Positions 2,299 to 16,876 of a stretch of 64,000 nucleotides of DNA are shown here, piece by piece; position 1 is the stretch's first letter, and every line of letters begins with the position of its first letter. Made by a program: the position numbers and the translations under genes. The stretch covers positions 1,282,001 through 1,346,000 of the forward strand of contig NZ_CP119082.1 of the NCBI RefSeq assembly GCF_029027965.1, written 5' to 3'. The stretch comes from Paracoccus sp. S3-43. GTDB taxonomy: Bacteria; Pseudomonadota; Alphaproteobacteria; Rhodobacterales; Rhodobacteraceae. Below the pieces are notes generated by a model. That model made no database searches and was not told where the DNA came from. It was given only the letters and a program-made list of their open reading frames with translations.

Positions 2299-3071
2299 TC
2301 AATAGAAGTGCAGCCCCCCGTCCCGGCGCTTATCCCCACGGACCGGAATGCCATAGAGGGTGCTCAGAGCCTCGGCCGTCAGAACCGCCCGGACGGGGCC
2401 TGATGCGACAACGCCGCCCCGGTTCAGCAGGATCGCGTCGTCCCCCAGGCCGGCCGCTTGGTCGGGATCGTGGGTGGACAGGATCACCGCCGTGCCCGCC
2501 AGGGCCAGGCGGCGGATGGCGTCGTTGACCGCGATGCGGTTGGCAAAGTCGAGGCTGGCGGTCGGTTCGTCCATGATGATCGTCGCGGCGTCCTGGGCCA
2601 GGGCGCGGGCGATCAGGACCATCTGCCGCTGGCCGCCCGACAGGCGGGTGACGGGGGCCTGGGCCAGATCGGCGATACCCAGCCGGGACAGCGCCGCCAT
2701 CGCCGCCCGCGCCTCGGCCGGGCGGGGCGGGCGAAGGGGCCAAGCCGGGCCGCCGCGCCCATCAGCACGATATCCCGCGCAGTGAAGGCGAAGGGCGTGG
2801 TCAGCGATTGCGGCACATGGGCGATATGGCGGGCGATCCGGGCGCGCGACAGCCCGGACAGAGGCTGGCCCGACAGCGCGACCGTGCCGCGGATCGGGGG
2901 GATCAGGCCCAGCAGCGTGCGGAACAGCGTGGTCTTGCCCGCGCCGTTCGGACCCAGCAGGCACAGCACCCGGCCCGGCGGCAGGCTCAGGTCGATGCCG
3001 GTGATCAGCGCACGGCCCGCATGACCGATGGCAAGGTCGCGGGCCTCGATCAGGGGCGTCACCCGGTCCAT
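2299..3071 (-). pseudogene. FecE-type ABC transporter ATP-binding protein, frameshifted
   Basis: ATPase of a FecBCD/BtuCD-type importer, last gene of the leftward operon and overlapping the permease gene by 13 bp. The first frame (from ATG at 3071) carries Walker A GPNGAGKTT and the Q-loop VPQS. The signature LSGGQRQM, Walker B IIMDEP, D-loop and switch His (STHDPD) are in a different frame that runs to the TGA at 2299. The switch falls in a G/C-run stretch at about 2719-2735: adding one C restores a continuous FARPRPAEARAAM. Either this is a genuine one-base deletion that abolishes the importer's motor, or a sequencing error in a GC homopolymer region. Each half alone would lack essential ATPase motifs. 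Confidence 0.8.
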
Positions 3072-4051
3072 GCCCGCGCGTTCCTTGCCAGCAGCCAGAC
3101 GAAGACCGGCGCGCCCAGCACGGCGGTCAGGATGCCCAGCGGAACCTCGAGCGTGGCGATGGTGCGGGCGGCGGTGTCGACCAGGACCATGAAGCCCGCG
3201 CCGATCAGGATCGCGGCGGGCAGCAGCCGGTCGAAGCGCGGCCCGGTCAGCAGCCGCGCCATATGCGGGACCATCAGACCCACCCAGCCGATCACCCCCG
3301 CCATGGCGACCGCCGCCGCCGTCATCAGCGTGGCGCAGGCGATGACCAGCCCGCGCAGGCGGGTGGCGTCGATGCCCATGGCGCGGGCCTCGTCATCGCC
3401 CATCGCCAGCAGCCCGATCCGCCAGCGCAACGCCAGCAGCGGGGCGATGCCGACCAGCAGGGCGGGCAGCGCCGCCGCCACATCCGCGCGCTTGGCGCCC
3501 GCAAGGCTGCCCATCAGCCAGAAGGTGATGGCGGGCAGTTGCTGTTCGGGATCGGCCAGCAGCTTGACCAGCGAAATCCCCGCCCCCGCCAGCGCGCCGA
3601 TGGCGATGCCGCACAGCACGATCATCAGCACCTGGCCCGTGCCCCGCAGCGCCAGCGTCAGGCCGATCACCAGCCCGACCGTGGCAAGCCCCATCCCGAA
3701 GCCCAGTATCTGGATCGCCATGACCGGCAGGCCCAGCAGGATGCCCAGCACCGCGCCGAAACCCGCCCCGGCCGAGACGCCCAGGATGTCGGGCGAGACC
3801 AGCGGATTGCGGAACACCGTCTGATAGGCCGCGCCCGCCGCCGCCAGCGCCGCGCCCTCGACCGCCGCTGCCAGCACGCGGGGCAGGCGGATGTTCAGCA
3901 GGACCGTCACCGCCTGCGGGTCGCTGCGATCCCCGGCCAGCACCGCGAGGATCGTCGCCGGAGACAGCCCGAAAGGCCCGATCGCCGCGCCCAGGATCAG
4001 CGTCGCGGCCAGCCCCGCCGCCAGCAGGACGACCAGGCCGCGATCACTCAC
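3059..4051 (-). CDS. FecCD-family ABC transporter permease
   Basis: The 330-residue integral membrane protein is predicted to have about 9-10 transmembrane helices. It carries the family landmarks RLPRVLAAAVEGAALAAAG, AYQTVFRNPLVSPDILGVSAGA and GVIGWVGLMVPHMARLLTG. This BtuC/FecD fold normally dimerises in the inner membrane and moves a metal complex, siderophore, cobalamin or oxyanion delivered by a periplasmic binding protein. Its start overlaps the stop of the binding-protein gene, and its stop overlaps the ATPase start, which indicates tight translational coupling. The substrate is not readable from the permease itself. Co-location with mop and DUF2478 suggests molybdate or tungstate, as in the MolBCA class of FecCD-type importers. 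Confidence 0.88.
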   Translation of the reverse strand: MSDRGLVVLLAAGLAATLILGAAIGPFGLSPATILAVLAGDRSDPQAVTVLLNIRLPRVLAAAVEGAALAAAGAAYQTVFRNPLVSPDILGVSAGAGFGAVLGILLGLPVMAIQILGFGMGLATVGLVIGLTLALRGTGQVLMIVLCGIAIGALAGAGISLVKLLADPEQQLPAITFWLMGSLAGAKRADVAAALPALLVGIAPLLALRWRIGLLAMGDDEARAMGIDATRLRGLVIACATLMTAAAVAMAGVIGWVGLMVPHMARLLTGPRFDRLLPAAILIGAGFMVLVDTAARTIATLEVPLGILTAVLGAPVFVWLLARNARAWTG

Positions 4052-5063
4052 CCAGCAGGGCCGTCAGCGCGGCATCGTCGGGGCGCAGGCCATAGAACAG
4101 GTCATAGAACGCCGCGACCTCGGCCCGCAGATCGCCCGTGGCGGCATCGGGATAGAGCTTGTGGGCCAGCCATCTCAGCCCGATCAGCCGGTTGACCGAG
4201 GGCGGCCGGTCGATGAAGCCGAAGGGCGCGGCGGGGGCCAGATAGACCCGGCCGTTCGCCACCGCCGGGATCCCCTGCCATTCCGGCATCCGCCCGACCT
4301 TGGCCGCGAAGTCGCGGTCGATGGTGATGATGACCTCGGGCGCCCAGGCCTGCACCTGTTCGGGGGATACGGTCGCCAATCCGCGCGTCCCGGCCTCGGC
4401 CACGTTGATCGCGCCGGCGCGTTCGATGATCTCGGCATTGATCGAACCTTTCGCCGCCGTTTCCAGCCCCTCGGGGCCGCGCGCCAGATAGACGGTCGGG
4501 CGCGCATCCTGCGGGATCCCGGCCAGCAGCGCGTCCAGATCGGCCAGCGTCCGTTCGGCATAGGCGGCCAGCGTCTCGCCCCGGTCCGGCACCGCCAGCA
4601 GGTCGGCCATCCGGCGGATGCCGCCCGGCAGGTCGGCAAGGCTGCCGTCGACCAGCACATAGGGCAGGCCGGTCTGGTCCTGGATGCGGCTTGCCAGGTC
4701 CACATAGGTGGCGTCGACGGTGCCGTAATCGACGATCAGGTCGGGCCTGGCCGACAGCAGCACTTCCAGATTCAGCGTGTCGCCCCGGCCGGTCAACATG
4801 CCAAGCTGGGGCAGGGCCGCGGCCTCGGGGCGCAGGAAGCGCAGGTCTTCGGGCGTCGGCGCGCGGACCCAGCCGACCATGGCGTCGGGCTTCAGCGTAT
4901 AGAGCAGCGTCGCGGCGGGCGGTCCGGCGGCGAAGACGCGGGCGGGGGCGGCGGGAACCGAGACCGCGCGCCCCGTGGCATCGGTGACGGTCCGGTCCTG
5001 GGCAAGGGCCAGGGCCGGGGCCGCAAGCAGCAGGGCGGCGATCAGCAGGCGGGGATGGATCAT
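4044..5063 (-). CDS. Periplasmic substrate-binding protein of a FecBCD-type importer
   Basis: 339 residues with a clear signal peptide (MIHPRLLIAALLLAAPALALAQ without a lipobox cysteine), followed by the RTVTDATGRAVSVP start typical of periplasmic binding protein family 2 (TroA/FecB superfamily). LLSARPDLIVDYG and the later VIITIDRDFAAKVGRMPEW, AVANGRVYLAP segments are the usual lobes. The ATG at 5063 was chosen because translation from further upstream would run through the trmO remnant in the wrong frame. The ATG overlaps the trmO stop (ATGA). Family members bind siderophores, haem, cobalamin or oxyanions. Neighbours (mop, DUF2478, Mo-boxes) make molybdate/tungstate, or a Mo-complex, the favoured inference. 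Confidence 0.87.
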   Translation of the reverse strand: MIHPRLLIAALLLAAPALALAQDRTVTDATGRAVSVPAAPARVFAAGPPAATLLYTLKPDAMVGWVRAPTPEDLRFLRPEAAALPQLGMLTGRGDTLNLEVLLSARPDLIVDYGTVDATYVDLASRIQDQTGLPYVLVDGSLADLPGGIRRMADLLAVPDRGETLAAYAERTLADLDALLAGIPQDARPTVYLARGPEGLETAAKGSINAEIIERAGAINVAEAGTRGLATVSPEQVQAWAPEVIITIDRDFAAKVGRMPEWQGIPAVANGRVYLAPAAPFGFIDRPPSVNRLIGLRWLAHKLYPDAATGDLRAEVAAFYDLFYGLRPDDAALTALLGE

Positions 5064-5429
5064 GGCGTGGCTCCGAAGTCGGCCTTGATGTCGATCAGCG
5101 GCGTGCCGTCCAGGCAGTCCGGCCCGCGCACCGCCAGCACCGGTCCCTCGACGGCCAGCAGCCGCACCACCGAGAAGGCGACCCGATTCGGCCGCACGGG
5201 CGAGCGCGGGGCAAAGGTGCCCGTCGCGCGGTCGCCGAAATTCGGGTTCTGCAACACCAGGTCGCGCCGCGCCCGGTCCATCCAATAGAGCAGTTGCAGC
5301 CGCTCGCGCCCCTCGACCCCGCGCAGCCCTTCGGATGCGGCCGATGAACCAAAGCTGCGCGTCGAAGCGGTCGGGAACGGTCACCGCCGGCTCGTGCGGG
5401 CGCAGGGCGTCCGCGCAGGCGTCAGTCAT
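5060..5429 (-). pseudogene. trmO: trmO (tRNA m6t6A37 methyltransferase), internally deleted remnant
   Basis: TrmO/TsaA-like proteins N6-methylate t6A37 in tRNA. The N-terminal part from the ATG at 5429 reads LRPHEPAV...AQLWFIGRIR. The C-terminal part, in another frame and running to a TGA at 5060, reads GLRGVEGRERLQLLYWMD, then DLVLQNP, GTFAPRSPVRPN and LDGTPLIDIK, all hallmark TrmO segments. The two parts join at about 5330-5340, and the usual connecting segment (about 35-45 residues by recollection of the family) is missing along with the frame. The ATG overlaps the mop stop (ATGACTGA) and the TGA overlaps the next ATG, so the operon architecture survives although the enzyme cannot be made intact. 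Confidence 0.72.
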
Positions 5430-5631
5430 CGACCCCCACCATGACATCGGACGCCTTGATCACCGCCGAGGCGCGGCCGCCGACCTTCAGGCCAAGCTCT
5501 TTCACCGCGTCGTTGGTGATCGAGGCGGTGACGGTGCTGCCGCCCAGGTCGATGCGGACATGGCTGGTGACGGCCCCGGTGACGATCTCGGTCACGGTGC
5601 CGGGCAGGACCTTGCGGGCGCTGAGCTTCAT
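5422..5631 (-). CDS. mop: Molbindin (Mop, TOBE-domain molybdate-binding protein)
   Basis: 69-residue single TOBE/Mop domain: MKLSARKVLPGTVTEIV, then VTSHVRIDLGGSTVTASIT and the C-terminal VIKASDVMVGVD. Stand-alone molbindins assemble into hexamers that bind molybdate or tungstate in the cytoplasm and are thought to buffer or store it. GGAG lies 7-8 nt before the ATG. The gene sits 26 bp downstream of the DUF2478 gene and overlaps the trmO remnant, placing it in the leftward operon. In Rhodobacter the mop gene is controlled through a Mo-box, and Mo-box-like dyads are present upstream here. This is the strongest functional clue for the locus. Confidence 0.88.
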   Translation of the reverse strand: MKLSARKVLPGTVTEIVTGAVTSHVRIDLGGSTVTASITNDAVKELGLKVGGRASAVIKASDVMVGVDD

Positions 5632-5657: not shown

Positions 5658-6170
5658 TCACAAGGCGGCCTGCCGGCAGGACTGGCGCAGCCACGAAAGG
5701 ATCCGCGCCTCGTCCGCCGGCAGTTCCTGCGCGCGCCCGTCGGCAAAGGCCAGAAAGGCGTCGCGCCATTGCGGAGAGACGCCGACCAGCACCGGAATGC
5801 CCCGTTCGCAGGCTTCGCCGATGGCCGGGACCAGGCCGCGCCCCGCAGCCTCTTGCTTGCCGAACTTGTTGACGATCAGCGCCTGCGCGCCCGCCACCCG
5901 GCCTTGGACGACCATGACGGCCTGCTCCAACGCGCCGGGATCCAGGCGGCAGCCCGTCACCTCGGGCGACAGCGGGACGCTGACATCGCGCAACTCTCGA
6001 TCCGGCAGCAGGGCCAGGACGATGTGGCACTGTTCGCCGGGGTGCCGCGCCTCGGGCGGTTGCAGGGTGCCCGCGAGCCGGATCCCTTCGGCCGCCAACG
6101 CATCCGCCACGGCGCACAGCACCGCATCGGTGCGCTTCTCTTCGTCCGAGCAAAGGTAACGGATGTCCAT
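5658..6170 (-). CDS. DUF2478 domain protein (Mo-associated, putative NTP-binding)
   Basis: 170-residue protein from the ATG at 6170 (MDIRYLCSDEEKRTD). An in-frame ATG at 6185 has no Shine-Dalgarno and would almost abut the upstream dyad. Visible features are an ADALAAEGIRLAGTLQP segment, LDPGALEQAV, LIVNKFGKQEAAGRGL and a C-terminal LPADEARILSWLR. The GIRLAG...VNKFGKQEA arrangement matches the DUF2478 family, found next to molybdate transport and molbindin genes in alphaproteobacteria. The biochemical activity is not established. It is the first gene of the leftward operon and therefore the one most directly controlled by the divergent promoter region. Confidence 0.75.
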   Translation of the reverse strand: MDIRYLCSDEEKRTDAVLCAVADALAAEGIRLAGTLQPPEARHPGEQCHIVLALLPDRELRDVSVPLSPEVTGCRLDPGALEQAVMVVQGRVAGAQALIVNKFGKQEAAGRGLVPAIGEACERGIPVLVGVSPQWRDAFLAFADGRAQELPADEARILSWLRQSCRQAAL

Positions 6171-6194
6171 GAAGCCCCCGATCATGCCGCGCCG

Positions 6195-6222
6195 TTCGAT
6201 AGGAATGATGGAACATATCGCA
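6195..6222 (-). promoter_or_regulatory. Weak Mo-box-like dyad upstream of DUF2478-mop operon
   Basis: Read on the minus strand, an 11-6-11 arrangement is present: TGCGATATGTT, six bases, TTCCTATCGAA. Against the ModE consensus half-sites ATCGnTATATA and TATATAACGAT, about 12 of 21 fixed positions match. Its left half shares CGATATGT with the stronger box at 6312-6339. It lies 25 bp upstream of the DUF2478 ATG. Weak on its own; the paired arrangement is what makes it notable. Confidence 0.4.
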
Positions 6223-6311
6223 GGGCCTTGGCAAGGGGTTGCCGTCCCGCCTGTCCTGCGGCTTCGGAAGAGAGTCTTTCGCCCGAATTGGGCCCTTGCA
6301 TTCCGCCAGGC

Positions 6312-6339
6312 TTCGATATGTCTGTCGGGATATAACGAT
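6312..6339 (+). promoter_or_regulatory. Mo-box (ModE/MopAB-type operator) upstream of TonB receptor remnant
   Basis: TTCGATATGTC (6312-6322), six bases, GATATAACGAT (6329-6339). The 11-6-11 geometry is exactly that of the ModE consensus (ATCGnTATATA, N6, TATATAACGAT). The right half matches 10 of 11 positions and the left half 7 of 10. The centre is about 55 bp upstream of the receptor start, a position compatible with repression by molybdate-loaded ModE/Mop-type regulators. No modE/mopAB gene is in the window. Confidence 0.65.
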
Positions 6340-6379
6340 TCGTCCTTGAGCCAAGGACAGCGCGGTCAGGAGGGGACAG

Positions 6380-7069
6380 ATGCGCATGACGATGCGGGCG
6401 GGGCTGCTGGGGGCGGCCGTCTGGGTGATCCCGGCGGTGATCCCGGCGGTGGTCCTGGCACAGGATGCCGTGACGGGCGCGTGGCCCTTCGTGCTGGGGA
6501 CCATCGTGCTGACCGCCGACGCCCCTCAGGATCGCGGCGGCACGTCCTCGACGATCAGCGACGGGGACATGCTGTTCTACAGCAAGGTCGCCGACATGAT
6601 CCAGTCGGTGCCGACCGGCGCCCTGGACGACGAGGGCGGGCCGATCACCCAAAGCCGCAACGTGGGCGACGGCACCTACAAGGGCTTCGAGATCGCGGCC
6701 AGTTGGGACATCACCGACCGGATCGGTCTCGTGGCGAACTATACCTGGCTGGATCGCGACATCTCGGACCCGGTGCTGGCCGACCTGCGGCCCACGGACA
6801 CGCCGCGCCAGACCGCCTTCCTGCGCCTCGACTGGCGGGCCACCGACCGCCTGACGGTCTCGCCCTCGCCGGAGGTCTCGGGGTCGCGGCTGTCGGAAAG
6901 CGCGGTCCAGCCCGAGGATCCGACCCTCATCGCCTATACCCGCATGGACGGCTCCGGGCTGGCGAATGTCGATGTGGACTGGCAGGCGACCGACCGGGCC
7001 AGCGTCGTCTTCGGCGTCAGGAACATCTTCGACCGCGACCACCAACTGGTCGTGCGCTTTCCCGGATAG
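6380..7069 (+). pseudogene. TonB-dependent receptor remnant (plug and most of barrel deleted)
   Basis: A strong Shine-Dalgarno (AGGAGGGG) precedes an ATG, a signal peptide ending in VVLAQ, and a TonB-box-like segment LGTIVLTAD at about residues 40-47. The protein then jumps directly to late barrel strands: FYSKVADMIQSV, GTYKGFEIAASWDITDR, VANYTWLDRD, VFGVRNIFDRDHQL. The plug domain and roughly 400-450 residues expected of the barrel are absent. The last strand is lost by a frameshift: RGLLVGGVRP continues in another frame after the TAG at 7067. Such receptors import metal chelates in concert with FecBCD-type importers such as the one across the divergent promoter. This copy can hardly function. 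Confidence 0.78.
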
Positions 7070-8227: not shown

Positions 8228-9097
8228 TCAGCGCTGCTGGCCCCAGCGGTGGATGGTGGCGCGTTCCAGCGTGGCGAAGACGACGTTTTCAACCAGCAGG
8301 CCGATCAGGATGACCATGGCGAGGCCCGCGAAGACCTGGTCGGTGTAAAGCTCGTTGCGGCTTTGGAAGATATACCAGCCCAGGCCGCCACGACCCGAGG
8401 ATGCGCCGAAGACCAGTTCGGCCGCGATCAGCGTGCGCCAGGCGAAGGCCCAGCCGATCCGCAGCCCCGACACGATCGAGGGCAGGGCGGCGGGCACCAG
8501 GATCTGCGCGACGAAGCGCCAGCCGGTCAGCCCATAGTTGCGGCCCGCCATGCGCAGCGTTTCGGGCACCGCCTGAAAGCCGGAAAAGATGTTCAGCGCC
8601 AGCGGCCACAGCACCGAATGGACCAGCACGAAGACCAGGCTGGCCTGTCCCAGCCCGAACCACAGCAGCGCCAGCGGCAGCAGCGCGATGGCGGGCAACG
8701 GGTTGAACATCGCCGTCAGCGTCGACAGCAGGTCGCGCCCGAACCGGGTCGAGATCGCCAGCGTCGTCAGCAGGAACGCCAGCACGATCCCGGCCAGATA
8801 GCCCTTGAGCAGCACCCCGATCGAAATCGCGGCCCGTTCCAGCAGCACGCCGTCGCGGATGCCGTCGACAAAGACGCGGGCGGTGGCGGTGAAGGTCGGC
8901 AGCAGCAGCGGGTTGCCTTGCAGCCGGGCGGCGGCTTCCCAGATCAGGGCGATGGCGGCGATGATGACCAGGCGGCGCAGCCAGTCCTGCGACCACAGCC
9001 GGGCGGTCAGCGGAATGACGCGTTCGACCGGAGCATCCTCGAAGGGCGGCAGATCGCGTTCGTATTCGGGCCGGATCGGCGGGTGCAGGGCGGTCAT
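8228..9097 (-). CDS. SsuC/TauC-type ABC transporter permease
   Basis: 289-residue inner-membrane permease of the aliphatic sulfonate/taurine/nitrate ABC class (binding-protein-dependent transport family BPD_transp_1). After an N-terminal cytoplasmic stretch and a first helix (VIIAAIALIWEAAA), the EAA-loop region reads ALNIFSGFQAVPETLRMAGRNYG...LPSIVSGLRIGWAFAWRTLIAAELV. The ATG at 9097 overlaps the end of the ATPase gene (4 bp, ATGA-type), so expression is coupled. The stop is followed 22 bp later by the SsuD-like gene. Substrate inferred from the neighbouring monooxygenase, not visible in the permease. Confidence 0.9.
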   Translation of the reverse strand: MTALHPPIRPEYERDLPPFEDAPVERVIPLTARLWSQDWLRRLVIIAAIALIWEAAARLQGNPLLLPTFTATARVFVDGIRDGVLLERAAISIGVLLKGYLAGIVLAFLLTTLAISTRFGRDLLSTLTAMFNPLPAIALLPLALLWFGLGQASLVFVLVHSVLWPLALNIFSGFQAVPETLRMAGRNYGLTGWRFVAQILVPAALPSIVSGLRIGWAFAWRTLIAAELVFGASSGRGGLGWYIFQSRNELYTDQVFAGLAMVILIGLLVENVVFATLERATIHRWGQQR

Positions 9098-9912
9098 GCG
9101 GCCTCTACCGGGTCGGAAAACAGCATGTCGTGGATTCGGTTGGCGGCGGCTTGGAAATCGCGCCCGCCCAGGCTGTGCAGGTCCCAGCCGTGGCAGTTGA
9201 TCTCGGCCCGAACCCGGCCCGGACGCGGCGACAGCAGGGCGACGCGGTTGCCGACGACCAGGGCTTCCTCGATCGAATGGGTGACGAAGATCAGCGTGAA
9301 GCGCACCTCGTCCCACAGATGCAGCAGCTCTTCCTGCATCTTGCGCCGCGTCAGCGCGTCCAGCGCGGCGAAGGGTTCGTCCATCAGCAGCACGCGCGGG
9401 CGCGAGGCAAGCGCGCGGGCAATGGCGACGCGCTGCTTCATGCCGCCGGAAAGCTGGTGCGGATGGCTGTCGCGAAAAGCGGCCAGGCCGACCTTGGCGA
9501 TGGCGTCCAGGGCGCGTTCCCGCGCCTCGGCGCGCGGCACGCGGGTCGCCAGCAGCGGGAACATCACGTTGCCCAGCACGGTTTTCCAGGGCGGCAGCTG
9601 GTCGAATTCCTGAAACACCACGATCCGGTCGGCGCCGGGGCCGGTGACAGGGCGGCCGTCCAGGATGATGCGGCCCTCGGTCGGGGGGATGAAACCCGCG
9701 ATGGCTTTCAGCAGCGTGGACTTGCCGCAGCCTGACGGCCCCAACAGCACGAAGCGGTCGGCCTGATAGACATCCAGGTCGACGCGATGGGTTGCCCGGA
9801 TCACCCGGTCGCGGGTGGCATATTCCAGCGTCACCCCGTCGACCCGCAGCAGCGGATCGGGCAGGGGCGGCGCGGCGGTGGCCGTGCGGGCGTCAAGGCC
9901 GGTCATCAGCAT
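9094..9912 (-). CDS. SsuB/TauB-type ABC transporter ATP-binding protein
   Basis: About 272 residues: Walker A LLGPSGCGKSTLL, Q-loop FQEFDQLPPWKTVLGNV, signature LSGGMKQRVAIARAL, Walker B VLLMDEPFAALD and switch His FVTHSIEEAL, all intact. This is the sulfonate/nitrate/taurine ATPase subfamily with the typical PW after the Q-loop. The frame is open to an ATG at 9936 that overlaps the preceding gene, but a TAAGGGCG element before the ATG at 9912 makes the shorter start more likely. Second gene of the leftward operon. Confidence 0.9.
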   Translation of the reverse strand: MLMTGLDARTATAAPPLPDPLLRVDGVTLEYATRDRVIRATHRVDLDVYQADRFVLLGPSGCGKSTLLKAIAGFIPPTEGRIILDGRPVTGPGADRIVVFQEFDQLPPWKTVLGNVMFPLLATRVPRAEARERALDAIAKVGLAAFRDSHPHQLSGGMKQRVAIARALASRPRVLLMDEPFAALDALTRRKMQEELLHLWDEVRFTLIFVTHSIEEALVVGNRVALLSPRPGRVRAEINCHGWDLHSLGGRDFQAAANRIHDMLFSDPVEAA

Positions 9913-9922
9913 CGCGGCGCCC

Positions 9923-10939
9923 TTAGCTTCCCGCATCGACGCGCGGATCGGCGAAGAAATAATCCGAGATTTGCGTCGGTTCGGTGCGGATCGCGCCCAC
10001 GCGGTGCAGGAACTGGCCCAGGCCCAGGGTGTTTTCCGGCTGGATCTTGAAGGTCACCTCGTCGCTGGTGATAACGTCCAGCAACAGCTTGCGGTCGGTC
10101 TTGGCGCCGGTGACCTTCAGATAGATATCCGCCGCCTCCTGGGGATGGGCATCCACGAAGGCCGCGGCCTCCTCCAGCGCGCCCAGCAGCGCCTGATAGG
10201 TTTTCGGGCTGTCCTGATAGAAATCCTCGGTCGCGTAAAGCAGCGTCGAGGAGGCCGGCCCGCCCAGCACGTCATAGGAGCTGAGGATCACATGCGCGTC
10301 GGGGTTCTGCGCCAGTTCCTGTTCCTGGAAGGGCGGATTGGCGAAATGGCCGGTGATCTCGGTCCCGCCGGAAATGATCGCGGCGGCCGCCTCGGGATGG
10401 GGCAGCGCCACGGTGATCTCGTCCAGGCGGTCGAACTGGTCGTCGCCCCATTCCTTGGCCGCCGCGAATTGCAGGATCCGCGCCTGGACCGAGACGCCGA
10501 CGGCGGGCAAGGCGATGCGATCGCGGTCGGTCAGGTCGGCGATGGTCTTCACCTCGGGCCGGTTCGAGATCAGGTAGTTCGGGAAGTTCCCCAGCGAGGC
10601 CACCGCCTTGACGGTCTGCCCGCCCCTGGTGCGGTCCCAGATGGTGAACAGCGGCCCGACGCCGGCGGCGGCCACGTCGATGCTGCCCGACAGCAGCGCG
10701 TCGTTGACGGCGGCGCCCCCGGACAGTTGCAGGAACTCGACCTCGATATCGACGCCCTGTTCCTTGCCGTGCTTTTCGATCAGCTGCTGGTCCTTGGCGA
10801 CGTTGAGCAGCAGATAGACGACGCCGAACTGCTCGGCGATGCGCAGCTTGCCTTCCTCGGCCTGGGCGGCGACCGCCGACAGAGCGGCGATGCTGGCACC
10901 CATCACAAGGGCGGCGAGGGGACGAAAATACCGTGTCAT
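9923..10939 (-). CDS. ABC transporter substrate-binding protein, sulfonate/taurine/nitrate type
   Basis: 338-residue periplasmic protein with a signal peptide (about 27 residues, ending AAQAEE) and the NMT1/SsuA-like fold: LRIAEQFGVVYLLLNVAK, EVEFLQLSGGAAVNDALLSGSIDVAAAGVGP, TVKAVASLGNFPNYLISN. First gene of the leftward operon; an AAAGGAG Shine-Dalgarno precedes the ATG. It delivers a small oxidised sulfur or related compound to the permease/ATPase pair downstream. The exact ligand cannot be read from sequence. A second, unrelated-copy SBP of the same general class starts the rightward cluster at 14.3 kb. Confidence 0.87.
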   Translation of the reverse strand: MTRYFRPLAALVMGASIAALSAVAAQAEEGKLRIAEQFGVVYLLLNVAKDQQLIEKHGKEQGVDIEVEFLQLSGGAAVNDALLSGSIDVAAAGVGPLFTIWDRTRGGQTVKAVASLGNFPNYLISNRPEVKTIADLTDRDRIALPAVGVSVQARILQFAAAKEWGDDQFDRLDEITVALPHPEAAAAIISGGTEITGHFANPPFQEQELAQNPDAHVILSSYDVLGGPASSTLLYATEDFYQDSPKTYQALLGALEEAAAFVDAHPQEAADIYLKVTGAKTDRKLLLDVITSDEVTFKIQPENTLGLGQFLHRVGAIRTEPTQISDYFFADPRVDAGS

Positions 10940-14200: not shown

Positions 14201-14217
14201 AAACTACAGTGAAACTA
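14201..14217. promoter_or_regulatory. AAACTA direct repeats in the LysR/SBP divergent intergenic region
   Basis: The 338-bp intergenic region 13937-14274 holds no gene. Near its right end AAACTA occurs twice (14201-14206 and 14212-14217), 11 bp apart, one helical turn, in an otherwise GC-rich context and 58 bp upstream of the binding-protein ATG. This is a reasonable operator candidate for the divergent LysR regulator. The rest of the region shows only a short GCGGAA/TTCCGC dyad around 14097-14122. Confidence 0.35.
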
Positions 14218-14274
14218 TCGACATTACCCGGCCGCTCCCTGACCTTTGGGGGCAGACAAAACGGAAGGTTGCCC

Positions 14275-15324
14275 ATGCCCCGCATCACATATCCCCTGCT
14301 TTCCCTGGCCCTTGGCCTTGCGGTCGCATCGCCGATGGCCCACGCCGCCGAGCCGCTGCTGGACGAGGTTCCGCCCGGCACCGTCCTGCGCATCGGCGAT
14401 CCGGTCACCCAGAAGGCGCTGGAGATCTCGGGTCTGATCGACGAGTTGAGCTTCGAGGTGGAATGGGCCAATATCAGCGGCGGCCCGCAGGGCAGCGAGG
14501 CGTTCCGGGCCAAGGCGCTCGACGTGTCCACCGTGGCCGAGATCCCCTCGATCCACGCCACCTGGACCGACCTGCCGGTGCGCAACATCGCCTATCGCGA
14601 ACGCGAGGATCCGATCGCCCATCCCGTCTATCGCTTTGGCGTCACCCCGGCGCTCGGCGATCAGATCGACGGCCTTGAAGATTTCAAGGGCCGCCGCGTC
14701 GCCTATAGTCCCGGCCAGGCGCAGGGTGCGCTTGTGTTGCGCGCGCTGGAGGCGGCGGGCCTGACCCGCGACGACGTGACGCTGGTCGAACTGCCCAGCA
14801 CCGGCGATGTCTATCCCGTCGCCTTGGCGGCGGGACAGGTGGACATCGCGCCGCTGGGCGGCGTCAATATCGCCCGCTATCTGTCGCAATACGGCGATGA
14901 CGGCGCGCGGACCATCGACCACGGGTTGCGCGACGATCCCAGCCATCTCTGGGCGCCGCAAGAGGTTCTGGACGATCCCGCCAAGGCGGCGGCCTTGGCC
15001 GAATATGTCAGGCTGTGGGCGCGGGCGACCGAATGGATCAACGACCACCCCGAGGAATACATCCAGGGCTATTACGTCAAGGACCAGAACCTGTCCTACG
15101 AGGATGGCAAGGCCGCCGTCGAGCAGACCGGCCGGCAGGTGATCCCGTCCAACTGGGACGAGGTGATCGAACGCCATACCCACACCATCGCCCTGCTGGC
15201 CGAAGCCACCGGCAACGAACCCTTCGACGCCGAGGACCTCTTCGACCGCCGCTTTGAAAAGCTGGCCGCCGAGGCCCTGTCCGAGGGATCCAGCGCGACG
15301 AAGAAACAGGAACTGATCCAATGA
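14275..15324 (+). CDS. ABC transporter substrate-binding protein (aliphatic sulfonate type)
   Basis: 349 residues from the ATG at 14275, with GGAAGG at 14263-14268. Signal peptide is MPRITYPLLSLALGLAV... ending at about AHAAE. The mature protein has NMT1/SsuA features: LRIGDPVTQKALEISG, EVEWANISGGPQGSEAFRA, DVSTVAEIPSIHA, LEDFKGRRVAYSPGQAQG, LPSTGDVYPVALAAGQVDIAPLG. It starts a rightward operon and its stop overlaps the permease ATG by 4 bp. The sequence differs from the SBP at 9.9-10.9 kb, so the two importers probably recognise different compounds. Ligand unknown; C-S compound uptake is inferred from the downstream monooxygenases. Confidence 0.87.
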   Translation: MPRITYPLLSLALGLAVASPMAHAAEPLLDEVPPGTVLRIGDPVTQKALEISGLIDELSFEVEWANISGGPQGSEAFRAKALDVSTVAEIPSIHATWTDLPVRNIAYREREDPIAHPVYRFGVTPALGDQIDGLEDFKGRRVAYSPGQAQGALVLRALEAAGLTRDDVTLVELPSTGDVYPVALAAGQVDIAPLGGVNIARYLSQYGDDGARTIDHGLRDDPSHLWAPQEVLDDPAKAAALAEYVRLWARATEWINDHPEEYIQGYYVKDQNLSYEDGKAAVEQTGRQVIPSNWDEVIERHTHTIALLAEATGNEPFDAEDLFDRRFEKLAAEALSEGSSATKKQELIQ

Positions 15325-16178
15325 CCCTGATCGCGACCGACGATTTCAAGCCGCGCGCCGAGCCGGCCTCGACCCTCGATCCCCGGCGGCGCAGCAGCGC
15401 GCGGGTCCGGCTTGGCCCCGGCCCGGCCATCCCCTTCGGAATGCAGATCGGCAGCATCGGGCTGGTGGTGCTGTGGACGCTGGGATCGGCCCTGGGGCTG
15501 ATCGACCCGCGTATCCTGTCGGCGCCCTGGACGGTGATCGAGGCGTTCGGCAAGCTGATCGCCGAGGGACGGTTGCAGGAGCATTTCACCATCTCGACCT
15601 GGCGGGCGGTCACCGGGCTGGTGATCGGCGTCGCCATCGGCACGGTGCTGGCGGTGATCGCCGGGCTGTCGCGGTGGGGCGAGGCGATCATCGACGGCCC
15701 CGTCCAGATCAAGCGTGCGGTGCCGACGCTGGCGCTGATCCCGCTTCTGATGCTGTGGTTCGGCATCGGCGAGGAGATGAAGATCATCACCATCGTGCTG
15801 GCGGTGATCGTGCCGATCTATATCCACACCCACAACGCCCTGCGCGGCATCGACAACCGCTATGTCGAGCTGGCCGAGACGCTGAACCTGTCGCGATGGG
15901 CCTTCATCCGGCAGGTGGTGCTGCCCGGCGCGCTTCCCGGATTTCTGCTGGGGCTGCGCTTTGCCGTCACGCTGTGCTGGGTGTCGCTGGTCGTGGTGGA
16001 ACAGGTGAACGCCACCAGCGGCCTCGGCTACATGATCAACCTGGCGCGCACCTATGGCCAGACCGAGATCATCATCGCCGGCATCGTCGTCTATGCGGTC
16101 CTGGGCCTTGCATCCGACGCCGCCGTCCGCCTTGTCGAAAGGAGGGCCCTGTCATGGCGCCGCACCCTGTCCCAGTGA
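15321..16178 (+). CDS. SsuC-type ABC transporter permease
   Basis: 285 residues with a cytoplasmic N-terminus and about six transmembrane helices. The EAA-type loop is NALRGIDNRYVELAETLNLSRWAFIRQVVLPGALP, and the WxxGxGEEMKI segment (LWFGIGEEMKIITI) is characteristic of the SsuC/NrtB group. ATGA overlaps with the binding-protein gene upstream and a 25-bp overlap with the ATPase gene downstream show that the three are one transporter. The inner-membrane channel for the organosulfur ligand delivered by the preceding protein. Confidence 0.9.
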   Translation: MTLIATDDFKPRAEPASTLDPRRRSSARVRLGPGPAIPFGMQIGSIGLVVLWTLGSALGLIDPRILSAPWTVIEAFGKLIAEGRLQEHFTISTWRAVTGLVIGVAIGTVLAVIAGLSRWGEAIIDGPVQIKRAVPTLALIPLLMLWFGIGEEMKIITIVLAVIVPIYIHTHNALRGIDNRYVELAETLNLSRWAFIRQVVLPGALPGFLLGLRFAVTLCWVSLVVVEQVNATSGLGYMINLARTYGQTEIIIAGIVVYAVLGLASDAAVRLVERRALSWRRTLSQ

Positions 16179-16876
16179 CCCGCTTCACGGTCGAGACGCA
16201 CAACCTCTATCGCGGCTTCAACGGCCGCACCATCCTGGCCGGTCTGGACCTGACCATCCGGCGGGGCGAGTTCGTGGCCCTGCTGGGCCGGTCCGGGTCG
16301 GGCAAAAGCACCTTCCTGAAGGCGCTGGCCGAACTGGACCATGACGTGACCGGATCGGGCCGCCTGGACGTGCCGCAGAACCGCTCGGTGGTGTTCCAGG
16401 ACGCCCGCTTGCTGCCCTGGCGCACGGTGTTGCAGAACGTCACCCTGGGCCTGCGCCATGCCGACGATGCCGGGCGGCGGATGCTGCGAGAGGTCGGGCT
16501 GGCCGGGCGCGAGGCGTCCTGGCCGGTGGAACTGTCGGGCGGCGAACAGCAGCGGGTGGCGCTGGCGCGGTCGCTGGTGCGCGAACCCGAACTGCTGCTG
16601 GCGGACGAACCCTTCGGCGCGCTGGACGCGCTGACCCGGATCAGGATGCATGTCCTGCTCAAGGAACTCTGCGCCCGCCATCAGCCCTCGGTCCTGTTGG
16701 TGACGCATGATGTGGACGAGGCGATCGCGCTCGCCGACCGGATCCTGGTGCTGGAGGACGGCGCCTTCGTCGAGGATCTGGCCATCGACCTGCCCAGCCC
16801 CCGCGAACCCGACAACCCGCGCTTCGGCCAGCTTCGCCGCCACCTGCTGGGCAAGCTGGGCGTCGCCACGCATTGA
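16154..16876 (+). CDS. SsuB-type ABC transporter ATP-binding protein
   Basis: 240 residues from the ATG at 16154, preceded by GGAGGG at 16141-16146. Walker A LLGRSGSGKSTFLKAL, Q-loop FQDARLLPWRTVLQNV, signature LSGGEQQRVALARSL, Walker B LLLADEPFGALD and switch LVTHDVDEAI are intact. It is the shorter SsuB form, ending in RRHLLGKLGVATH. It overlaps the permease gene, and its stop touches the next gene's Shine-Dalgarno region, so transporter and monooxygenases are co-expressed. Confidence 0.9.
   Translation: MAPHPVPVTRFTVETHNLYRGFNGRTILAGLDLTIRRGEFVALLGRSGSGKSTFLKALAELDHDVTGSGRLDVPQNRSVVFQDARLLPWRTVLQNVTLGLRHADDAGRRMLREVGLAGREASWPVELSGGEQQRVALARSLVREPELLLADEPFGALDALTRIRMHVLLKELCARHQPSVLLVTHDVDEAIALADRILVLEDGAFVEDLAIDLPSPREPDNPRFGQLRRHLLGKLGVATH

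Follow-up and report, generated by a model that had tools for sequence, protein, structure and literature searches.

Molybdate is generally held to need no dedicated transporter for its passage through the outer membrane. The described systems closest to the locus considered here are the ModE/Mo-box regulons, the MolBCA importer, and outer-membrane receptors such as BtuB, OprC and the siderophore receptors. The regulons of Escherichia coli ModE and of Rhodobacter capsulatus MopA/MopB are marked by dyads of the 11-6-11 class, the E. coli ModE consensus being ATCGNTATATA-N6-TATATANCGAT (PMC545781), and TonB-dependent receptors do not figure as targets in the accessible parts of two descriptions of such regulons (PMC545781; PMC6925177). 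MolBCA of Haemophilus influenzae (HI1470-1472) combines a FecB-class periplasmic binding protein (SBP) with a FecCD permease and an ABC ATPase. Its SBP, HI_1472 (MolA), binds molybdate and tungstate, and the factor behind the molybdate repression of molB is left unknown in the accessible part of the same paper (PMC4031551). A dedicated outer-membrane molybdate transporter is not named in the corresponding parts of PMC4031551 and PMC7759655.

The present locus shares the dyad class with the ModE and MopA/MopB regulons and the three transport components with MolBCA. It differs from the former in that a short ModE lacking Mop domains is the putative regulator and in that TonB-dependent receptors are among the putative targets. 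Unlike MolBCA, its transporter is part of a Mo-box locus that also has genes for Mop, DUF2478, a TrmO-like protein and a TonB-dependent receptor. The locus lies in a 64-kb stretch of Paracoccus sp. S3-43 DNA (the window, meaning the whole stretch analysed) and has the following features:

6312..6339, no strand assigned: Mo-box 1, an 11-6-11 dyad that ends 40 bp 5' of the start codon of the receptor relic
6195..6222, no strand assigned: Mo-box 2, a weak dyad 24 bp 5' of the divergent operon's probable start codon
6380..7069, plus strand: relic of a TonB-dependent receptor gene, 229 aa, with the signal region and the last third of the barrel
5658..6170, minus strand: DUF2478 gene, first of the divergent operon (PF10649, E=7e-45)
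5422..5631, minus strand: mop, for a small Mop/TOBE protein (PF03459, E=1.5e-16)
5066..5429, minus strand: TrmO-like gene, disrupted, in two frames (pieces 5346-5429 and 5066-5335)
4044..5063, minus strand: MolA-like periplasmic binding protein (SBP) of the FecB class (PF01497)
3059..4051, minus strand: FecCD-type permease (PF01032, E=4.6e-82)
2302..3071, minus strand: ABC ATPase gene with a frame change (ORFs 2733-3071 and 2302-2691)

The minus-strand genes follow one another in the order DUF2478, mop, TrmO-like, FecB-class SBP, FecCD permease and ABC ATPase; the DUF2478 ORF extends to 6185, and its start at 6170 was set by comparison with relatives. A preliminary description had placed the dyads between a TonB-dependent receptor gene and an operon with mop. 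This holds on the mop/FecB-FecCD side, but the receptor gene is a relic. A TonB-dependent receptor comprises a plug and a full barrel, as the intact Paracoccus aminovorans protein does, whereas the window ORF covers only positions 292-436 of the PF00593 profile and has no Plug among the domains listed. It aligns to residues 1-61 and 519-683 (or 486-683) of the P. aminovorans protein, which has 697 aa. The missing parts are about residues 62-485 (or 62-518) and the C-terminal 14 residues, and no further match to the receptor was found elsewhere in the same genome. For the TrmO-like gene, tblastn with the P. aminovorans protein recovers residues 1-28 and 63-152 in different frames and finds no match to residues 29-62 at the window locus. 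In the ATPase gene the frame changes between residues 113 and 128 (tblastn), each ORF holding part of PF00005; a full-length ATPase is annotated in P. aminovorans. The disruptions were called against the intact plasmid locus of that species, beside whose receptor no mop or DUF2478 is annotated or detected by tblastn. Since long stretches are absent, sequencing error is a poor explanation for the damage to the receptor and TrmO genes; the ATPase frame change alone could be such an error. With these three genes disrupted, the window locus as it stands is unable to make the outer-membrane step, and of the MolBCA components it retains an HI_1472-homologous SBP and a FecCD permease without an intact ABC ATPase. 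The receptor arm has decayed in the S3-43 genome, and decay has probably begun in the transporter as well, so that the preliminary description had come upon what is left of a system that relatives have in intact form. A protein of the TrmO family (tRNA methyltransferase) is often part of Mol-type clusters, as at 5066-5429 in the window or L005:9775-10236. To the right of the locus lie two sulfonate/taurine-type ABC importer clusters, named by ORF reading (8228-10939 and 14209-16876), the first adjoined by a luciferase-like monooxygenase gene (PF00296, 7099-8292).

Mo-box 1 reads TTCGATATGTC-TGTCGG-GATATAACGAT at 6312-6339 and has CGATATGT in common with Mo-box 2, where it stands on the minus strand; the positions and the shared motif agree with the preliminary description. 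The E. coli ModE consensus has 20 informative positions, of which Mo-box 1 matches 16 and Mo-box 2 matches 12; the earlier counts of 17/21 and 12/21 were made on a slightly different consensus. Mo-box 1 tops the window by 4, the runner-up 28-mers scoring 12/20, and 20,000 dinucleotide shuffles of 6169-6379 yielded not one score of 16 or more. In the whole 3.22-Mb single-contig genome it is the sole match to TCGNTATRT-N8-AYATANCGA with at most two mismatches. Judged by its sequence, Mo-box 1 is genuine, and like the operators of ModE regulons it is a consensus dyad close to a gene start. With Mo-box 2, at least 12/20 is attained in 1152 of the 20,000 shuffles (about 6%) and eight sites of 12/20 occur in the window, Mo-box 2 among them, so that Mo-box 2 alone is not above chance; the case for it as a putative operator comes only from conservation across loci. 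A sigma-70 promoter scan of 6100-6420 gave a single weak match, on the minus strand, and in the same genome a weak 12/20 site is situated directly 5' of a modA-like gene (L092 9824). As part of the best overall explanation, 6171-6379 is probably a Mo-box-controlled divergent promoter.

Relatives of the receptor were taken as the best 80 of 106 stretches of genome contigs matching the intact receptor query, with upstream counted 5' of the start of the protein match, a point that in some loci is inside the gene. The search for the same dyad upstream of orthologous receptors, proposed in the preliminary description, finds one of at least 13/20 within 300 bp in 66 of the 80 and one of at least 14/20 in 52, against 0.7% and 0.1%, respectively, of random same-length segments from the same loci (n=4000). 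Because random segments are mostly coding, the upstream stretches of other predicted genes in these loci served as an additional control; 15 of 785 have a site of at least 13, and several of the 15 precede a Mol-type operon (L025, L030, L034) or a short modE (L044), judged by position. Other TonB-dependent receptors have no such site (0/29 within 550 bp upstream, against 67/80 for the receptor family), the controls being 30 of 210 plug matches from five genomes, less L186 at a contig edge. When exact 5-bp dyads are counted without any consensus, TATAT-N8-ATATA ranks first (41/80 versus 4/1600), and with one locus per genus label it is found in 17/28. The identity of the best segment to the query is as low as 41%, which makes recent shared descent of intergenic DNA an unlikely cause of the sites in distant lineages. 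No site of at least 13 within 300 bp upstream is seen in 14 of the 80 receptors; these include all three Rhodovulum and both Neomegalonema loci, four of which adjoin a Mol-type cluster. As in a ModE regulon, the operator is thus conserved upstream of orthologues. The earlier proposal that the locus responds to molybdenum, receptor included, gains from the dyads of the relatives, whose lack would have refuted it, and loses by the state of receptor, TrmO and ATPase in S3-43 itself.

The second dyad was surveyed in 17 Paracoccus-type loci, 13 of which retain the divergent SBP operon. A second dyad of at least 11/20, positioned 182-313 bp before the receptor match, is present in 11 of these 13, the window included, and is absent in L016 and L026. 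Where the operon is not adjacent, it is found in one locus of four (L011, score 11). Of the paired operators claimed earlier, Mo-box 1 goes beyond chance by itself, while Mo-box 2 draws on this recurrence.

The dyad can be followed beyond the receptor in sibling Paracoccus genomes. In the 14 of 17 receptor genomes whose receptor match is long and unbroken, TCGNTATRT-N8-AYATANCGA with at most two mismatches has 64 sites, compared to 3 for the reversed pattern. All 26 sites of four genomes (G103, G076, G092 and G011, the receptor site of G011 via L005) were read. Twenty of them are before or at the 5' end of genes for Mo enzymes, mod-like functions, FecCD/FecB-type transport or receptors, which ties the dyad to molybdenum in Paracoccus. 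Among the enzymes are formate dehydrogenase (TIGR01553 above cut-off in L149), a gene resembling sulfite dehydrogenase (under the cut-off of the SorA model), a further molybdopterin oxidoreductase and a nap-like operon, whose site is 524 bp ahead of its first ORF. The remaining genes are mod-like ones, transport genes of the FecCD or FecB/ModA type, the Mo-box receptor family itself and a second, siderophore-type receptor; some of the names (modABC, nap, unscanned copies) come from ORF reading. Mod-like genes and Mo enzymes are targets that these genomes have in common with the E. coli and R. capsulatus regulons. Two sites are 3' to the operon of the second receptor (L158, L165), and four fit nothing Mo-related (two in L163, one by an arginase-family gene in L150, one inside mutL in L167). 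In G093, the one site inspected of six precedes a FecCD gene. The second receptor (L158:6884-9220 in G076, L165:2949-5285 in G092) is flanked by two Mo-boxes and has a methyltransferase, a FecCD-like protein, an ATPase and an SBP as neighbours; the TIGR01783 cut-off is exceeded in L158.

The preliminary description had named ModE and the Rhodobacter MopA/MopB proteins as binding such dyads. In the S3-43 genome, TIGR00637 matches a single protein well (91 bits, below the cut-off of 98.5), which has 119 aa and no domain besides the DNA-binding one of ModE; a second match is weak (E=6.7e-4), while TOBE/Mop domains are confined to Mop and one ModC-like ATPase. From this it follows that both MopA/MopB and full-length ModE are absent from the genome. 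MopA/MopB are rejected as regulators here, there being no fusion of a ModE DNA-binding domain with Mop in the genome, and so is full-length ModE, since the only clear ModE match is the 119-aa protein, which has no Mo-binding domain. The short protein is a regulator of the ModE type. The short ModE of Agrobacterium and Sinorhizobium, as described by Hoffmann and colleagues in 2016, reportedly also has the DNA-binding domain only, binds Mo-boxes and responds to Moco status. The likeness is in the domain content; a point of difference is that one of the candidate targets here is an outer-membrane receptor.

The neighbours of the receptors were surveyed in fetched flanks of up to 10 kb, often ended by contig ends. 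Of the 80 receptors, 23 have a MolA-like SBP (at least 100 bits) nearby, 18 have a short modE (E<=1e-6 by tblastn) and 40 have one or the other. In the two loci from Neomegalonema, the genes for Mop, TrmO, SBP, permease and ATPase come one after another behind the receptor gene, all in its orientation. Of 121 Paracoccus genomes, 17 encode the receptor (E<=1e-100) and 20 encode the SBP (E<=1e-70), with all 17 receptor genomes among the 20; the three genomes with SBP and no receptor are S3-43 and two that are under 85% complete. In G084 and G092 the two genes are on different contigs, yet both are present. The hypergeometric probability of this co-inheritance is 5e-18 with relatedness ignored. 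In G056, one of the 17, the receptor gene is interrupted by stops, and in G031 and G062 the receptor match is partial. Among solved structures, the SBP is related to HI_1472 (E=1.5e-14), its best match being an unnamed periplasmic binding protein (4pag), and further relatives are haem, B12 and ferrichrome binding proteins.

The receptor itself resembles BtuB, OprC and the siderophore receptors in having a plug and a barrel in the intact P. aminovorans relative and in its fold match to OprC. It differs from them in falling below the listed NCBIfam cut-offs and in having a Mo-box and no Rfam riboswitch at the loci examined. The AlphaFold model of the P. denitrificans receptor (L011, 91% identical to the P. 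aminovorans protein) has a mean pLDDT of 86, and its best Foldseek matches are the copper receptor OprC and receptors for siderophores, with 14-19% identity among the 50 matches listed. The structural neighbours are OprC, PirA, PfeA, FrpB and BtuB, and the best solved relatives by sequence are BtuB and Cir. In the plug, 28 aligned members have many invariant columns between residues 76 and 159. The receptor is under the cut-off of all 25 NCBIfam families among the matches listed, and given this and the low identities, its sequence gives no pointer to molybdate; nor do the AlphaFold model and Foldseek reveal the ligand. Control by a cobalamin or other known riboswitch was considered and rejected: at gathering score, Rfam gave no riboswitch and one tRNA only in six loci (L005, L013, L022, L032, L061, L075) and no match in the window.

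The reading that we consider probable, from comparison of sequences, is that of a Mo-repressed family of TonB-dependent receptors feeding a MolBCA-type importer. In a Mo-sufficient cell, the short ModE, with its DNA-binding domain only, would occupy Mo-box 1, ahead of the receptor gene, as well as Mo-box 2, ahead of the DUF2478-mop-TrmO-molABC-like operon. Its occupancy is predicted to repress both divergent units, which would be expressed upon Mo shortage, and sufficiency may be sensed via the status of the molybdenum cofactor, by analogy with Agrobacterium. In intact relatives, molybdate, tungstate or a Mo complex would pass the outer membrane through the TonB-dependent receptor, a protein of about 700 aa; the MolA-like SBP and the FecCD-type ABC importer would then bring the substrate into the cytoplasm, where Mop would hold it. 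The substrate and the direction of transport are predicted. The presence of this type of switch at intact relatives of the receptor suggests a little-known outer-membrane step in molybdenum uptake. A wider proposal is more tentative, and we give it slightly less than an even chance: a widespread alphaproteobacterial family of TonB-dependent receptors, repressed by Mo through short ModE, may consist of dedicated outer-membrane importers of molybdate, tungstate or a Mo complex. Their partners would be MolBCA-type transporters in Paracoccus and relatives, whereas in sphingomonads a MauG-like protein and a secreted one of the HGHGPxC type would take that place.

Molybdate is small enough for passage through porins, which counts against the importer reading. 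A type II importer and a TonB-dependent receptor are the usual pairing for chelates, and the receptor could accordingly take a Mo chelate (a metallophore complex) and not bare molybdate, the FecBCD-type importer then taking the complex. The Mo-boxes flanking the second, siderophore-type receptor operon in two siblings (L158, L165) also agree with a chelate, which we nevertheless think unlikely, the SBP having in HI_1472 MolA a relative that binds molybdate and tungstate (PMC4031551, accessible part). A ligand without molybdenum is a still poorer prospect. The receptor would then be Mo-regulated while importing iron, copper, a haem compound or something cobalamin-like that is needed under Mo shortage or for Mo enzymes, and its neighbours would share only the regulator with it. 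Such a ligand is compatible with the structural neighbours (OprC, PirA, PfeA, FrpB, BtuB), the sequence relatives (BtuB, Cir) and the haem, B12 and ferrichrome binders among solved SBP relatives, as well as with the Pfam-confirmed MauG-like and di-haem oxidoreductase neighbours in a sphingomonad and Reyranella. It is harder to reconcile with the MolA-like SBP in 17/17 receptor Paracoccus genomes, even where unlinked, with Mop and DUF2478 within the same cluster, and with the lack of any riboswitch reaching the Rfam gathering score in the six loci and the window.

As to S3-43 itself, the Mo-box and the locus may be non-functional leftovers of a decayed system, a view to which we give a substantial share of belief, if less than half. 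The disrupted receptor, TrmO and ATPase genes speak for it, as do modABC-like genes elsewhere in the genome (ORF reading), while Mo-box 1 is intact, the frames of mop, DUF2478, SBP and permease are unbroken, and mop may still be used. It is very improbable that the dyad is a chance AT-rich palindrome. Mo-box 2 alone would allow it, but Mo-box 1 does not fit with its score, its uniqueness in the genome, the shuffles and the dyads of relatives as compared to controls, and for Mo-box 1 chance is rejected by the conservation in relatives.

For the Mo-repressed receptor feeding a MolBCA-type importer, the co-inheritance of the Mo-box receptor family with a MolA-like protein makes active outer-membrane uptake of Mo testable now in Paracoccus denitrificans. 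A candidate is also gained for the factor behind the molybdate repression of MolBCA-type operons, and receptors annotated by default as siderophore receptors acquire a new substrate to try. A Mo-box-controlled TonB-dependent receptor was not found in the literature searched (Mo-boxes, ModE, molybdate uptake), a search of partial coverage that leaves room for an earlier prediction, and none is described in the accessible parts of PMC10781756, PMC8233155, PMC7759655 and PMC4031551.

In sphingomonads the surroundings of the receptor are different. In ten sphingomonad genomes, CGNTATAT-N8-ATATANCG with at most two mismatches has 66 sites versus 67 for the reversed control, so that no regulon is visible with that pattern, and a MolA-like SBP was found in none of the flanks (up to 10 kb) of the sphingomonad receptor loci. 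A short modE is within about 6 kb in 13 loci of the sphingomonad type. A secreted protein, often encoded divergently from the receptor, is present in 34 of the 80 loci, mostly in sphingomonads with a few outside. This family of about 165-210 aa has a motif like HGHGPxCSGIRKMVDF with variants (for example L061:9402-9896 and 33 other loci), and the one member scanned, that of L061, has no Pfam or NCBIfam match. A MauG-like di-haem protein occurs in 25 loci (one member scanned, L075). At outlying loci, a di-haem oxidoreductase (L037:8537-9886) is a neighbour of one receptor, and a cytochrome c protein (L076:8921-9790) with a weak molybdopterin-domain match, below cut-off, lies by another.
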